DNA from: Gimesia maris
Lineage (GTDB): Bacteria > Planctomycetota > Planctomycetia > Planctomycetales > Planctomycetaceae
Length of the DNA: 64,000 nucleotides
Direction: 5' to 3'
Assembly (NCBI RefSeq): GCF_008298035.1
Contig: NZ_CP042910.1
Location: 4,727,001-4,791,000 of the forward strand
Numbering within the stretch: the first letter of the stretch is position 1; each line of letters begins with the position of its first letter. Both the position numbers and the translations under genes were made by a program. This document shows positions 10,733-60,652 of the stretch, piece by piece. The notes under the pieces were generated by a model. The model saw nothing but the letters and a program-made list of their open reading frames with translations. It did no database searches and was not told the origin of the DNA.

Positions 10733-11034
10733 AATAAACAGATCGATATGAAAGAGGGATTGTTTACATCATATGCTGTCCGGTAAGGCCAAACGAGAGA
10801 GATCAACAGATTCGTATTTCTCTCCGCGAAAAACCCTGTAGCGCAGCATCACAGCAGATTTGTTTACGTAAAGAGTAGGTCAGGTAAAGCAGTCGCGGAA
10901 AACTGTCTTGCGGGAATCAGGGATGTCGCTAAAAAACGACATCCAAAGTTGACCTTAACAGCAGATATACTGATTTTACCGATTTCAGGAGTTGCCCGGA
11001 TTAATTAATAAGATCAATTAAACGGTCCAGCTGG
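10733..11034. other. Non-coding stretch between the GT-C-like gene and the rhomboid gene
   Basis: No credible gene. It holds a short inverted repeat at 10921-10944 (8-bp arms, loop of 8 nt). The next 91 nt to the rhomboid stop codon are a dispersed repeat, annotated separately. Promoter elements for the minus-strand gene ending at 9143 should lie near 10733-10850, but none stands out. Confidence 0.6.
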
Positions 11035-11125
11035 AGTACATCACACTTAACTAGAGTGTCTGTCAAATTATTACACTCGGTCTAAATGATTCTTGTGACA
11101 CTACGGTAAAGCTGGAAACAGTCTA
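11035..11125 (-). repeat. Dispersed intergenic repeat, copy B
   Basis: About 91 nt aligning along its length with copies at 37978-38069 and 58771-58863. Shared blocks include CATCACA-TTAAC at one end and the core ACAGTCTA at the other. This is the most diverged copy and its internal stem is imperfect. Read on the minus strand, its first bases (TAGACTGTTTCCAG) contain the rhomboid TAG stop at 11125-11123. Confidence 0.7.
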
Positions 11126-12385
11126 AAGCGTCACTCCCTCCATCGCACTCTGAGGAGATCCGGGATCAACGGGAGGCGCAGACAGATCGCGTGGCTGGGG
11201 AGCCACACGGCGATCCGTTTCTCTCAGAAACAGAAACTCATTCCCGGATTGACCTGGCTTTGGTAAAGGCACATCAGCTGACGCCACTGCCGACTGATCC
11301 AGTTGGAACCGCTCCAGCCAGGCATCGGATTCATCGCCGAAAACATCTGTGACGATCGCGAGCGCTTTCTGCTTCTGCTGTTCCGAATTGAACTGTTTCC
11401 AGATCAATCGCGTAATCTCGACCCCTTTATCATAGGAACGATTGCGTTGCAGCGATCGCAGCATAATCTCCCACGAATGAAGCGGTACTTCTTCTGTTCG
11501 AAACAGACTGAGTGCCAGTTCTGCCCCGATTTTCGGTTCACCAGGAGACAGTTCCATCCCCTTCTTCAGATAGGCAATCTTCTGCTCGAGATCATTTTCA
11601 TGCCGCGCCAGGTACCAGTAATACTTACCATTCCAGAATGGATGAGATACCAGATAGGTACCGGGGATAATCAAAACCTGCGACAACACAAACAGAAATC
11701 GGAGTGTTCCTGCAAAGCGGGAGCGATTGATGAGAACAGCCCCTGCCAGGATTCCGTAGACAAATCCGGTAACGTGGGCGGCATTCGCAATATTCATAAT
11801 ACCGAAATGTGTTAAAATAAAACACAAAATCAGCCAGCCCAGTCCCCAGTTGATTTCACGCTCAGTAAATACTTCTGCGATTTCAGGGTGAATGCGGCGG
11901 AGCAGCATCAGCAACCCGAACATCGCGAAAGCGCCTCCCGATAAACCAACGGGATAATGTTCCAGAAAATATTCCGGCAGCAAGGAAACATAGGTCGCCA
12001 GTAACAGGAACGCAGCGTAAACCCAATGCTTCATCACAGGTTCAATCAGTCGGCCGAAAAATCCGATCGCTAGGCAGTTAAACAGCAGATGCAACACATC
12101 GCCATGATGAAAGCCGCTGATCAGAATGCGCCACCATTCTCCCGACCACAGATCGAAGGGCCCCCCGGTCGGATATTCTTTCTCTTCAACCAGGGGATGA
12201 TCGTATACAAAAACAAGGGGCTGGACAGCACCTAATTTCCACAGCGCATCGTCAAAACTCCCCTCATGGGAGATACCATGATCGACTCTGTAAATCTGTA
12301 CCGCCAGAAACAACCCGACTGCACAGGCAATATAAGCCGCAGTGACAGGATATTTTGAACAGGCTCTGAACAGGGAATGAAACAT
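11123..12385 (-). CDS. Rhomboid-family intramembrane serine protease
   Basis: Cleaves transmembrane substrates inside the membrane. The 420-residue product starts at ATG 12385. Seen: a first TM segment (about 15-30), a long periplasmic loop, the oxyanion-region motif HHGDVLHLLFNCLAIGFFG, catalytic Ser149 in GLSGG, and catalytic His204 in AHVTGFVYG, completing the Ser-His dyad. About six TM helices lie before residue 265. A C-terminal soluble region of roughly 150 residues, helical and TPR-like (KKGMELSPGEPKIGAELALS), follows, so this is longer than minimal rhomboids. The stop codon lies inside a dispersed repeat. It is divergent from the RodA/FtsW-like gene. Natural substrates are unknown. 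Confidence 0.92.
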   Translation of the reverse strand: MFHSLFRACSKYPVTAAYIACAVGLFLAVQIYRVDHGISHEGSFDDALWKLGAVQPLVFVYDHPLVEEKEYPTGGPFDLWSGEWWRILISGFHHGDVLHLLFNCLAIGFFGRLIEPVMKHWVYAAFLLLATYVSLLPEYFLEHYPVGLSGGAFAMFGLLMLLRRIHPEIAEVFTEREINWGLGWLILCFILTHFGIMNIANAAHVTGFVYGILAGAVLINRSRFAGTLRFLFVLSQVLIIPGTYLVSHPFWNGKYYWYLARHENDLEQKIAYLKKGMELSPGEPKIGAELALSLFRTEEVPLHSWEIMLRSLQRNRSYDKGVEITRLIWKQFNSEQQKQKALAIVTDVFGDESDAWLERFQLDQSAVASADVPLPKPGQSGNEFLFLRETDRRVAPQPRDLSAPPVDPGSPQSAMEGVTL

Positions 12386-37962: not shown

Positions 37963-37977
37963 ACCTGAATGCTGTCC

Positions 37978-38069
37978 AGAGCGCGTCACCTTTAACCATA
38001 GCGTCTCTCCATCAATGATACTCGATCAACTGGTCCTGGAGTCGCTACAGCTATACTCGAAACAGTCTA
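37978..38069 (-). repeat. Dispersed intergenic repeat, copy C
   Basis: 92 nt, roughly three-quarters identical by eye to 58771-58863 and clearly related to 11035-11125. It contains TAGCGTCTC and, 47 nt later, GAGTCGCTA, which pair as a stem with one mismatch. On the minus strand its first bases are TAGACTGTTTCGAG, and the TAG is the stop codon of the thioredoxin-like gene (38069-38067). Confidence 0.75.
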
Positions 38070-38468
38070 TTTGCGATTATAGAACATCTCAGCGATGCGG
38101 TAGGCATTCAATGAACCGGAACGACTGACTTCTTTCCCATCGACAATCAGAATCAACGTCGGCAGTGACTGCACATTATACTTATCAGTCAAATCTGCGT
38201 GCTGGTCGACATCAATCACGCGGATATGGCTTGATTTCGCTTCACTGATTTCCCAGTTCTGTTTTCTGAGCGCGGGAAATTCATTGTTCTTCATCTGCAC
38301 GCAGGCAGGACACCAGCTTGCGGTAAACAGTAACAGCTGATGGCGGGAGACATCTTCTTCCATTTTAAAAAGTTGAATGACGTTGTCAGGTAACGCAGGG
38401 ACTTCCACTGACTGAGCTGGTGCTAATGAAAGAGATAACACCAGTGTTGCTGGGATGAGTGTATTCAT
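38067..38468 (-). CDS. Exported thioredoxin-fold protein
   Basis: The 133-residue product has a short signal peptide (about 1-19, ending PAQS) and a thioredoxin domain with the CPAC active site in FTASWCPACVQMK, then IDVDQHADLTDKYNVQSLPT with the conserved cis-proline. It is probably periplasmic and acts on disulfides. A partner cannot be read from context. Its stop codon lies inside a dispersed repeat. Confidence 0.9.
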   Translation of the reverse strand: MNTLIPATLVLSLSLAPAQSVEVPALPDNVIQLFKMEEDVSRHQLLLFTASWCPACVQMKNNEFPALRKQNWEISEAKSSHIRVIDVDQHADLTDKYNVQSLPTLILIVDGKEVSRSGSLNAYRIAEMFYNRK

Positions 38469-56972: not shown

Positions 56973-58772
56973 ATGCGGCTTCTTCATTGGCTAGCACCGG
57001 TATTGAGCATCGTTCTCATCTCGCATGCACACTCAACAGTACATGCGCAGGGATATCCGCCCTCATACCAGGGAGCCGGGATGGTACAACCTGTATCATA
57101 CGACCCCGGAAATCTTCCATATGCACGAACCATGGTACCACCACCGCCTGGATACTTTCAGCCGCCAGCCGGACCCTACGGGGCTCCGACTGCACCGGGA
57201 GTACCCATGAACGCTGGTCCCCAGGCACCCGTCAGTGCGTTTCCGCAAATAACTCCCTTCGAAAAGATGTTCCAACAACATCGCGTCGAGAGTGACGGGC
57301 TTTGGATGTACAATTCCAGTAATCATGGAAAACGACATTTCTTCAGCATGGAAGCTCTGTTCGGTCGCTATCGTCGACCAGGCAGCATGCGACTGGGTAA
57401 CGACGGATCGATCTCCTACCTGGGCCTGGTAGAAGATGAACTGATTGATGCCACCGATGAAGAATTCTATGATCAATTCAGTGAAAACGAAGGTTTTAAC
57501 TACTTCGATCAGACAACCTATGATGTCATACCAAATCTGAATGCACCTGGTGCCCGACTGCGTTGGGGCTGGACGAACGACGATGAAAGTGGATTTGAAA
57601 TCGTGGGCTGGTGGTTGACACAGGCTGACACTTCATGGTCTGCGATTGAAGATTCTACCCATCAGCCAAATCCAGCGAATCAGGCGATTATGGATATTCT
57701 GCTGTCACCGCCTAATTATATTGATCCTTCCGGGACGGGAGTAGTCTCTTCCATCCCCGGCGTCACTACTGCCGAAATCAATACGGTTCTCCAGAATGAA
57801 CTGATGAACCTGAGAGGCTTGCCTCTGGATGATGGTAGCGTGAATGGTGTCACAGTCCCTTATGACCTGGACTTCAACATTAAGGTTGTCAGTCAGGCAT
57901 GGGGTACCAACGCCACCTGGATGTCCACTCCGTTTGTGGATAAGAAAGCCCTGAAGATCCGCGGACTCGCAGGAGCCCGATACATGCACGTCAGAGAAGC
58001 TTTCAGTTTTGTTGGTCGCGACAGTGGGCTGCTTTACAGTGATGCTACCAATATTGCCGGGATTCGTCCGGACCTGAAACTGTTCTCGCTTCCTTCAGGA
58101 ACCGATGAAAACCAGGACGGAATCGTTGATAATGCGGGGGTAGTCGAAGATGACAGTACCGGAGGAGGTAGCACTGGTACTTCAACGGCTTTCTTTGTTG
58201 CTCCCCTGGATCCGGTAACTGGATTGCCAGTCACTCCCACTACGACTTATGTTAACAACGTAGTGCGAACCAATCTGGCTGGTCCGGAAATTGGTTTTCA
58301 GTTTGACCTGGGTGGCGAAAAATTCAAACTCTGGGGACAGACCAAGTTTGGCTTGATGGCAAACCAGGAAAAGATTCAGCTGAAAGGGGATAATGTCGGT
58401 ATGATTATCCGGGCTGATCCCAATGATGTGGATCGTCCCAAAGCGTTGATTGATCCGACAGCAACTGATCCAAACCCGAACGCATTCACAGACACACAAA
58501 GTCACACACACGTTTCACCTCTCTTTGAACAATCGATCTTTGCAGAAATGGCACTCTTTGACAAAGTCCCTGTGCTCAAACGTATGAAACTGCTCGAAGA
58601 AGCGAAGCTGAAAGTTGGCTACACCTACATCGTGGCCGGAGATATCGCCAGACCTTATGAAAGCATTCTCTGGCAAGGGATGCCAACCAGAGGACTCTTC
58701 CCTTCGATCGACTTGAAACGCGAGACCTGGAGTGTCGGGACCTGGAGTGTCGGTCTGGACTGGAACTACTAG
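56973..58772 (+). CDS. BBP7-family outer-membrane beta-barrel protein
   Basis: Surface or outer-membrane protein of a family largely confined to planctomycetes. The 599-residue product has a signal peptide (about 1-25, VHAQ), a Pro/Tyr/Gly-rich N-terminal linker (26-90), and a barrel-like part with alternating strands starting HFFSMEALFGRYRRPG and ending in an aromatic terminal strand (SVGTWSVGLDWNY), as expected for barrel insertion. AAGGA precedes ATG 56973. It may be a porin-like or adhesive protein. Confidence 0.9.
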   Translation: MRLLHWLAPVLSIVLISHAHSTVHAQGYPPSYQGAGMVQPVSYDPGNLPYARTMVPPPPGYFQPPAGPYGAPTAPGVPMNAGPQAPVSAFPQITPFEKMFQQHRVESDGLWMYNSSNHGKRHFFSMEALFGRYRRPGSMRLGNDGSISYLGLVEDELIDATDEEFYDQFSENEGFNYFDQTTYDVIPNLNAPGARLRWGWTNDDESGFEIVGWWLTQADTSWSAIEDSTHQPNPANQAIMDILLSPPNYIDPSGTGVVSSIPGVTTAEINTVLQNELMNLRGLPLDDGSVNGVTVPYDLDFNIKVVSQAWGTNATWMSTPFVDKKALKIRGLAGARYMHVREAFSFVGRDSGLLYSDATNIAGIRPDLKLFSLPSGTDENQDGIVDNAGVVEDDSTGGGSTGTSTAFFVAPLDPVTGLPVTPTTTYVNNVVRTNLAGPEIGFQFDLGGEKFKLWGQTKFGLMANQEKIQLKGDNVGMIIRADPNDVDRPKALIDPTATDPNPNAFTDTQSHTHVSPLFEQSIFAEMALFDKVPVLKRMKLLEEAKLKVGYTYIVAGDIARPYESILWQGMPTRGLFPSIDLKRETWSVGTWSVGLDWNY

Positions 58773-58863
58773 AACGCATCACAATTAACCATAGCGTCTC
58801 TCTATCGAATATACTCAGTCCAACTGGCCCTGGAGACGCTAAAGTAAAACTGGACACAGTCTA
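58771..58863. repeat. Dispersed intergenic repeat, copy A
   Basis: 93 nt that start at the BBP7 stop codon (TAG 58770-58772) and end in ACAGTCTA. The best-preserved copy: TAGCGTCTC (58792-58800) pairs perfectly with GAGACGCTA (58833-58841), 9 bp. Related to 37978-38069 and 11035-11125. Lies between convergent genes. Confidence 0.78.
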
Positions 58864-58894
58864 GAGTATTCCACTGACAAAATGAAACAACATC

Positions 58895-58929
58895 ACCGGC
58901 CGGGAATCAGACTTCCCTGCCGGTTTTTT
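58895..58929 (+). terminator. Rho-independent terminator of the BBP7 gene
   Basis: Stem ACCGGC-C-GGGAA paired with TTCCC-T-GCCGGT (one internal mismatch), then a T-run to 58929. It overlaps the stop of the convergent sulfatase and may end both transcripts. Confidence 0.8.
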
Positions 58930-60652
58930 ATTTAATCCGGGTCAGGACTACATCACCCAGCGAACTATTATCACCAGGGTAGACCCGGTCTTCTCCTTCT
59001 GCCTGAAACCAGATATCAAGTAACCCGGTCCCGGCTTTCAGTTCGAACTCGGCCGCAGATTCCCCGGGTGACAGGAAATCATGCAAAGTCCTGCCCTGCC
59101 AGTTCACAGACAGCCTGCCAGGCTTCGCTGTTTTTCGATTGATCTTGATTCGATATAACCCGGATCGGACGATTTTCACCATCCAGCCTTCTGACACCCC
59201 CTTTTGGAATGAGCCATCCTGATAACGGCACAGGATGCTGGGATTCTCCTGCTCCCGATCAATCACGATCAGACCCGGTTCAAAATTTCTTGTTGCTTTC
59301 ATTTCTGAAAACCAGTCCTCATATTGCTTAAGTAAAGCCTTTACCGTCTCAGGATGCGAATGCAGCACGTTCTTCTGCTCCCCTGGATCTGTCGAAAGAT
59401 CATAGAATTCCAGAACAGGTTCTGCCTGCAGTAGTAGATTTTCGGTTCCAAAAGTACCAGGGTAACCTGCCAGTTTGAATCGTTCCGTCACCACGGCATA
59501 ATTCTGATAGCGTTGTGGCGTCAAACCTCGGTGCACCTGGAAAAACAGACTTCGTGCCGGCAACTTCTCTTTTCTGCCTGTCAACAGTGGTGACAGATCG
59601 ACTCCATCCAACTTAAGAGATTCGGGACAACGTGTCTCCGTCAGTGCCAGTAACGTTGGCATCAGATCGATATGCGCAGCGATCTGATCTATTTTCTCTC
59701 CTTCCCGAAAATGACCAGGCCATTGCGCCAGACAGGGAACCCGGATCCCCCCTTCATAAGTCCAGGATTTCCGCCCGCGCAGACCTCCGGTATACCTCTT
59801 CTGCTGTGGACCGTTATCCCCCAGAAACAGAACCACTGTCTTCTCTGCCAGAGCAGATCGTTCAAGATGCGACAACAGCTTCCCGATGTTTTCATCCAGA
59901 TTCGTAATCATTCCATAAACACGGGCGGTTGTTTCATCAAGTCCCTGCCGTTGATAAGGTTTCCAGTAAGATTCAGCAATTTCCAGAGGCGTATGGGGAG
60001 CATTCGTTGCCAGATAGACAAAAAACGGTTTTTCTGTTTTTGTCTGCCGATCGATAAAGTCCAGAGCTGCATCAAAAAACACGTCCGTACAATATCCAGT
60101 TGACTGAAACGCGACTCCATTCTTCCACAGCTTTGGATGAAAATAACTGTTGGGTTGGTCGGGACTCTGACCAATTCCCCCACTCTTATGAATCAGCGAT
60201 TCCGCAAACCCCTGATCCTGCGGCCGCATCGGATAATTATCTCCCAGATGCCATTTCCCGAAAATCCCGGTCTGATAACCCGCCTGCTGCAGCAGCTCAG
60301 CAACCGTGACTTCTTCCCCCTGCATTTTTGCTCCGCCACGCGAAGTATGAATGACTCCCGTGCGATAATAGTTACGTCCTGTTAACAGGCTGGCGCGCGT
60401 TGGTGCACAGACAGGACTGCAATAGAAGCGGGTCAACTCTATACTCTTTTCCGCCATCCGATCCAGATGCGGCGTATTGATTTTCAAATTCCCGCGAAAC
60501 CCCACATCCCCATACCCCTGGTCGTCCGTCAGAATGACGATCACGTTGGGACGGCTCTCAGCGCATAAAGTTCCCTCGCAGCCGAACGAGTATGACACCA
60601 GTAACAGAAAGCCTGCAAACCACTTTACGGTAGAGATAGTAAACTGATTCAT
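58928..60652 (-). CDS. Exported sulfatase with C-terminal beta domain
   Basis: The 574-residue product has a signal peptide (about 1-31, TLCAE), metal site VIVILTDDQGYGDVGF, active-site C82-A-P-T-R (formylglycine), IFGKWHLGDNYP and LFLGDNGPQQ. Residues from about 450 form an extra beta-rich domain (SGLYRIKINRKTAKPGRLS) not found in minimal sulfatases, perhaps for glycan binding. Third sulfatase of the region; convergent with BBP7. Confidence 0.92.
   Translation of the reverse strand: MNQFTISTVKWFAGFLLLVSYSFGCEGTLCAESRPNVIVILTDDQGYGDVGFRGNLKINTPHLDRMAEKSIELTRFYCSPVCAPTRASLLTGRNYYRTGVIHTSRGGAKMQGEEVTVAELLQQAGYQTGIFGKWHLGDNYPMRPQDQGFAESLIHKSGGIGQSPDQPNSYFHPKLWKNGVAFQSTGYCTDVFFDAALDFIDRQTKTEKPFFVYLATNAPHTPLEIAESYWKPYQRQGLDETTARVYGMITNLDENIGKLLSHLERSALAEKTVVLFLGDNGPQQKRYTGGLRGRKSWTYEGGIRVPCLAQWPGHFREGEKIDQIAAHIDLMPTLLALTETRCPESLKLDGVDLSPLLTGRKEKLPARSLFFQVHRGLTPQRYQNYAVVTERFKLAGYPGTFGTENLLLQAEPVLEFYDLSTDPGEQKNVLHSHPETVKALLKQYEDWFSEMKATRNFEPGLIVIDREQENPSILCRYQDGSFQKGVSEGWMVKIVRSGLYRIKINRKTAKPGRLSVNWQGRTLHDFLSPGESAAEFELKAGTGLLDIWFQAEGEDRVYPGDNSSLGDVVLTRIK

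Follow-up and report, generated by a model that had tools for sequence, protein, structure and literature searches.

The window analysed here, a stretch of 64,000 nucleotides of the Gimesia maris genome, contains three copies of a repeat of around 90 bp, and the question it raises is what this repeat is and why its copies stand where they do. An earlier note on this DNA had offered three interpretations, namely a structured 3'-UTR element, a terminator or a small non-autonomous mobile element. Of these, the last is upheld by our analyses, on the grounds of empty orthologous sites, a TA duplication and an insertion sequence (IS) with matching ends, while the other two were not borne out. The repeat is very probably a non-autonomous MITE of the IS630/Tc1-mariner type.

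The three copies, here named A, B and C in order of position, are located where the earlier note had placed them and align end to end, with copies A and C agreeing at 67 of 97 positions. A single covariance model of the repeat, built from 32 copies with all three window copies among them, matches each of them over its full length (Table 1). The internal stem described previously does exist, but it had been assigned to the wrong copies: the perfect TAGCGTCTC/GAGACGCTA pairing is found in the copy at 58771, the stem with one mismatch in the copy at 37978, and a diverged form of it in the copy at 11035. All three copies are indeed situated at gene 3' ends, B and C being flanked by convergent genes and A by co-directional ones. 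A 15-base direct repeat (GACCTGGAGTGTCGG twice, window 58724-58753) is located at the 3' end of the gene that precedes copy C, and is similar in relatives.

Table 1. Positions in the window of the three repeat copies, the stop codons at their ends and a neighbouring hairpin (G numbers denote related genomes).
Feature	Position	Strand	Remarks
Copy A of the MITE	11032..11125	-	Left TA decayed to TG (11032-11033), core 11034-11123, TA 11124-11125; full-length model match 11030-11126, 87.6 bits
TAG stop of gene 11123-12385	11123..11125	-	In the end of copy A; element-free genomes have TAA (G006), TAG (G009) or TGA (G013)
Copy B of the MITE	37977..38069	-	Left TA decayed to CA (37977-37978), core 37979-38067, TA 38068-38069; full-length model match 37975-38070, 87.8 bits
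TAG stop of gene 38067-38468	38067..38069	-	In the end of copy B; six relatives end at that codon, with TAA or TAG in five and TGA in G011
Copy C of the MITE	58770..58863	-	TA 58770-58771, core 58772-58861, TA 58862-58863; full-length model match 58768-58864, 112.8 bits; empty site in G006, G014 and G011
TAG stop of gene ending at 58772	58770..58772	+	TA duplicate plus the first G of the element; relatives with an empty site have, at the same codon, TAA (G006, G014) or TAG (G011)
Terminator-like hairpin with T-tract	58895..58930	+	-19 kcal/mol, z -4.9; outside the element; kept in G006, G014 and G011, which lack the element

We searched the 7,816,689-bp genome containing the window (one contig) with copy C and retrieved 40 BLAST-scored copies, drawn from 193 first-look candidates, with identities of 83–100% and copy C itself included. 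All 150 candidates scored with the covariance model, a subset of 2116 first-look candidates, passed (E<=1.6e-8, lowest score 58 bits), and two extra copies outside these 150 were met in flanking sequences (L099 and L137; 66 and 62 bits). The family has at least 152 copies in the 7.8 Mb of this genome, a number far beyond chance; the earlier note had named fewer than about five copies as an outcome that would speak against its proposal. Among 40 genomes searched, a match to the model was present in all 17 members of the genus, the window genome included, and in none of the 23 genomes from other genera of the family or class. Matches per genus member ranged from one (G001, G005, G008 and G012) to at least 104 (the window genome, G011 and G014), high counts being lower bounds, as the tallies are of 40, 104 or 150 matches listed per genome. 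A shared ancestral source locus was considered for the single-match genomes and rejected, the copies of G001 and G012 being located elsewhere than the copy shared by G005 and G008. The latter (L040 and L042) occupies the same orthologous site in both, near an ORF resembling leucyl-tRNA synthetase. Three of the four single-match genomes (G005, G008 and G012) also have a truncated older copy, and an old truncated left half of the element, at position 1501 of L323, L324 and L326, is common to the same three; in L324 it provides the TAG end of an ORF.

The anatomy of the element was examined in a sample of 98 copies from the window genome, consisting of the 30 best, 60 drawn from ranks 31 to 150 by taking every other one, the window copies and the neighbours that came with them. 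On the model strand, which is the minus strand in the window, the layout is Y-TA-GACTG ... CTC-TA-G, where each letter is that of the majority and some copies have decayed. The boundaries (TA-G...C-TA) are sharp, and the termini are imperfect inverted repeats of ~30 bp, which agree with one another at 17 of 27 positions and whose inner 9 bp (TAGCGTCTC/GAGACGCTA) are perfect in the consensus. As in a MITE, there is no coding capacity, the ~90-bp core being too short for a transposase, and copies are many. In G014, the best-scoring 40 of at least 104 matches, hence the youngest, match their consensus at 93–99% identity; 38 of these 40 have C or T immediately ahead of the first TA, and 39 have G directly behind the second. 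The same genome holds three head-to-tail copies with a 92-bp period and CTAG common at the joints (L031 1501-1781, G014:C1:5078039-5078319), as expected from insertion of new copies into the terminal TA of existing ones, or from tandem duplication.

Comparison with related genomes provided evidence that the element has moved. At the locus of copy C, the element is missing from three relatives and the flanks are 0–4 bases apart. Aligned by eye with G014, with no further length change, the empty site reads AACTATTAAAACATTCC and the filled site AACTAC-TA-[element]-TA-GAGTATTCC. This comparison, together with the TA found at both ends of most copies, shows a TA target duplication, for which it cannot be told whether the width is TA or up to CTA/TAG, the letters of element and target coinciding there. 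The site of copy A is empty in G006, G013 and G009. Because G011 has a decayed full copy and G014 half a copy, copy A was probably inserted before these lineages split, and its lower identity to the consensus (70/90, against 82/90 for copy C) fits this. For copy B, the element was not seen in G009, G012 and G013, and in G014, G011 and G006 the spacer consists of unrelated or decayed sequence; since the spacer has diverged in the nearest relatives, this insertion cannot be dated.

The DDE_3 domain (PF13358) had matches in 9 of the 17 members of the genus and none in the window genome itself. Among the 26 DDE_3 loci, there are two (L147 in G016 and L148 in G001) whose transposase is flanked by inverted matches to the right-end profile of the element, with scores of 29–34 bits at both ends (maximum 55), while five others have one right-end-like end each, at ~20 bits. 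The IS at these two loci, complete in both sister genomes, is 1,027 bp long, counted from CTAG to CTAG, and contains two ORFs (111 and 213 aa) that overlap and that a frameshift would join. In the G001 copy, the 111-aa ORF gave IS630-type helix-turn-helix matches, and the 213-aa ORF matched DDE_3 (E 5e-33) as well as the NCBIfam IS630 model (143 bits, cut-off 100). This copy (L148 1000-2026) appears by eye to be at the in-frame TAG end of another transposase-like ORF.

The right end of the MITE agrees with the two IS ends at 25 and 25 of 27 positions in L148 and at 24 and 24 of 27 in L147. Its left end agrees with them at just 16–18 of 27, yet is well conserved within the MITE family, and no IS with an end matching it was found among the 26 DDE_3 loci at the threshold used. 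Left-end pattern matches that stood apart from model hits in G005, G008 and G012 were considered as IS ends and proved, as far as seen, to be truncated copies. Searches with the 213-aa protein retrieved matches in 5 of the 17 genomes. In the window genome, a complete partner IS was not found, and the protein search met only a 30-residue piece with a stop, which is part of a 101-bp relic of the right end of the IS (L177 1479-1579; G000:C1, near 2647113), 88% identical and with the end included. G014, which has the young copies, gave no match in the partner protein search, and its single DDE_3 hit is without matching ends. Contigs of Gimesia sp. SAT87 encode a protein related to the partner transposase, with 89% identity to it over residues 4-134.

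These findings also bear on a different kind of mobile repeat. REP and REPIN elements have a RAYT, a Y1 HUH transposase, as their partner and are not known to duplicate their target. It is extremely unlikely that the present family is of this type and is moved by a RAYT: it is small, palindromic, intergenic and of high copy number, as such elements are, and REP families have been reported in Planctomycetes (PMC3733652), but the TA duplication in the filled and empty comparisons and the match to IS630 ends argue against it. At the level of sequence, the features are those of an IS630-derived MITE.

The hairpin and the location of the copies suggested another explanation, in which the repeat is a structured RNA element of mRNA 3' ends, acting as a stabiliser, processing site or terminator, with its hairpin under selection. 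We regard this as very unlikely, even though several observations besides the 3'-end position agree with it. For copy C, the minus strand reaches -34.3 kcal/mol and beats shuffled sequences (z -4.0; plus strand -20.6 kcal/mol, z -2.4), folding is likewise better on the minus (model) strand in 30 of 32 copies, and 7 of the 34 pairs of the consensus stem are G-U. The plus-strand consensus fold is weak. Across those 32 copies, pairs are kept at 90.8% compared with 90.6% in shuffles, and changes on both sides of a pair are slightly in excess (6 versus 3.1, a value of 6 being reached by 12 of 500 shuffles). However, this excess was not borne out in the larger set of 79 ungapped copies, obtained by excluding the 19 of 98 with indels. 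Here, paired cells amounted to 2158 of 2528 compared with a shuffled mean of 2163, with 427 of 500 shuffles reaching 2158, the pair was kept in 16 of 39 double changes, and no single pair covaried at p<0.05. One-sided transitions at Watson-Crick pairs broke pairing in 134 cases and kept it in 83, counts that are uncorrected for the shared ancestry of the copies. There is no strand bias relative to co-directional genes (27 copies in the same and 27 in the opposite orientation), and an Rfam covariance-model search of the window returned 0 matches at the gathering score. The empty orthologous sites likewise argue against an RNA role. As for covariation, whose absence, together with that of a conserved position relative to genes, the earlier note had counted as evidence against its proposal, the 79 copies show none that is clear.

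A role in termination, which the earlier note had also put forward, found no more support. In an intrinsic terminator the hairpin is followed directly by a T-tract, while the element lacks a T-tract and ends in CTCTAG on the model strand. A terminator-like hairpin does occur close to copy C, but it is located beyond the element and persists in relatives where the element is absent (Table 1). A terminator scan of 58700-59000 listed none, although it missed this hairpin too. The hairpin of the element itself is most readily understood as a by-product of having inverted repeats, as a MITE does, rather than as a selected RNA.

We then analyzed the genomic placement of the 98 copies, with genes called by a crude script that uses ORFs and codon usage and was trained on 35 long ORFs of the window. 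With this gene caller, 0 of the 98 copies were intragenic. The gene context could be classified for 90 copies, with 8 left unclassed: convergent genes flank 18, co-directional genes 54 and divergent genes 18, compared with 7, 47 and 36 expected by intergenic length (p 2e-6). When expectation is based on the number of intergenic gaps, the context does not depart from it (p 0.60). A stop codon falls exactly on the TA in 24 of the 98 copies (22 TAG and 2 TAA), compared with 36 of 651 non-coding YTAR sites (p 3e-8). The excess over YTAR sites was repeated in the 40 copies of G014 (8/40 versus 15/223, p 0.012) and in G016 (7/21 versus 9/117, p 0.003), where 21 of 25 matches were used and the four weakest left out.

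Such an excess could mean that the transposase of the MITE, or an accompanying factor, actively targets stop codons, so that site choice rather than tolerance is at work. This is unlikely. It would agree with the position of L148, one of the two complete partner IS copies, which is also at a stop, and with an excess that holds against any TA <=30 bases after stops (101 versus 180 sites, OR 2.4, p 0.011). Once the flank preference is considered, however, stops do not stand out significantly from the 30 bases that follow them: compared with YTAR sites in this range (28 at stops, 33 near them), 24 copies are at a stop and 18 near one (OR 1.57, p 0.32), and a stricter target gives 12 versus 12 (p 0.62). 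With a baseline of CTAG sites only (3 stop and 22 intergenic, i.e. 3/25), the difference is also not significant (p 0.28). Tolerance of gene 3' ends, combined with the frequent occurrence of YTAR in stop codons, suffices for the stop-codon excess. The association with gene 3' ends seen in the earlier note is real, but it is accounted for by tolerance and the TA target. It can also be imagined that the ends of the element are kept so that TA and the terminal G always rebuild TAG, with stop codons as its true niche, many genes of the genus having a mobile, hairpin-forming 3' segment, and a second, putative transposase that reads the distinct left end as the mover; we find this combination quite improbable. 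At A, B and C, the stop reads TAG because both ends of the element begin with G beside the TA, and the proteins are not shortened, since a native stop occupies that very codon in relatives.

As a MITE of the IS630 type, the ~90-bp element would depend on an IS630-family transposase that acts in trans to excise and insert it. Its target would be Y-TA-R, with the TA, seen at empty sites and in the flanks, being duplicated, and a cut-and-paste mode would be expected from the family. The likely source is the transposase of the 1,027-bp IS630-type IS, the ends of which resemble the right end of the element. Because no more of this IS than a 101-bp end fragment was found in the window genome, the elements there are probably stranded. 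Copies would accumulate in the places where they do least harm, consistent with the lack of intragenic copies in the sample, the divergent gaps filled below their length expectation and the many copies at gene 3' ends. Roughly one copy in four has a TA that belongs to a stop codon; there, the stop would read TAG and the protein would be unchanged, as checked for the three window copies.

The closest kind of known system is RUP with IS630-Spn1. RUP is 107 bp long, has 108 copies, is associated with TA and has ends like those of an IS630 element (PMC2229807), and it is in excess between convergent genes (PMC3049150). It has in common with the present family a length of ~100 bp, ~100 copies, an intergenic location, TA duplication, IS630-like ends and the convergent excess, the likeness being one of description. 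The two differ in phylum, and here only one of the two ends closely matches the IS, of which a relic alone was found in the window genome. Correia/NEMIS and ERIC, again compared by description, are likewise MITE-type repeats with inverted repeats and TA at their termini (table in PMC2229807). According to the same review, IS-like ends had either not been sought in the other bacterial repeats or had been sought without success, RUP being the exception. In pneumococcus, BOX likewise supplies stop codons (36 CDSs), with no strong sign that the proteins are truncated, and its ends have been likened to ISSpn2 rather than IS630 (PMC3049150). Duplication of TA by an IS630-family transposase has been shown for ISY100 (PMC2170065), and a preference of IS630 for the TA in CTAG is stated in a title in the reference list of that paper. 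IS630 and ISY100, as IS of the Tc1-mariner family, insert into and duplicate TA in the same manner, but, unlike the MITE, they carry their own transposase.

Among the papers on Gimesia or planctomycetes listed in our searches, none is, judged by title, about such a family, and by term counts the main text of a review of prokaryotic MITEs (PMC10969869) mentions neither IS630 nor planctomycetes. The present family provides a planctomycete genus with a MITE for which a likely partner IS and both filled and empty orthologous sites are available. Since sister species differ in copy number, from 1 to at least 104, the loss of a partner and the stranding of its dependants can be studied directly, and the family offers a simple route by which a mobile element can enter a stop codon without damage.

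Two further placements were observed. At L105 (374-1596), a cluster within 1.2 kb consists of two good copies along with a weak match (34 bits). At L008 (1498-1594; G000:C1:2256033-2256129), a copy is found within an array of 13 tRNA genes, where it separates tRNA-Lys from tRNA-Thr and ends ~2 bases before the latter.
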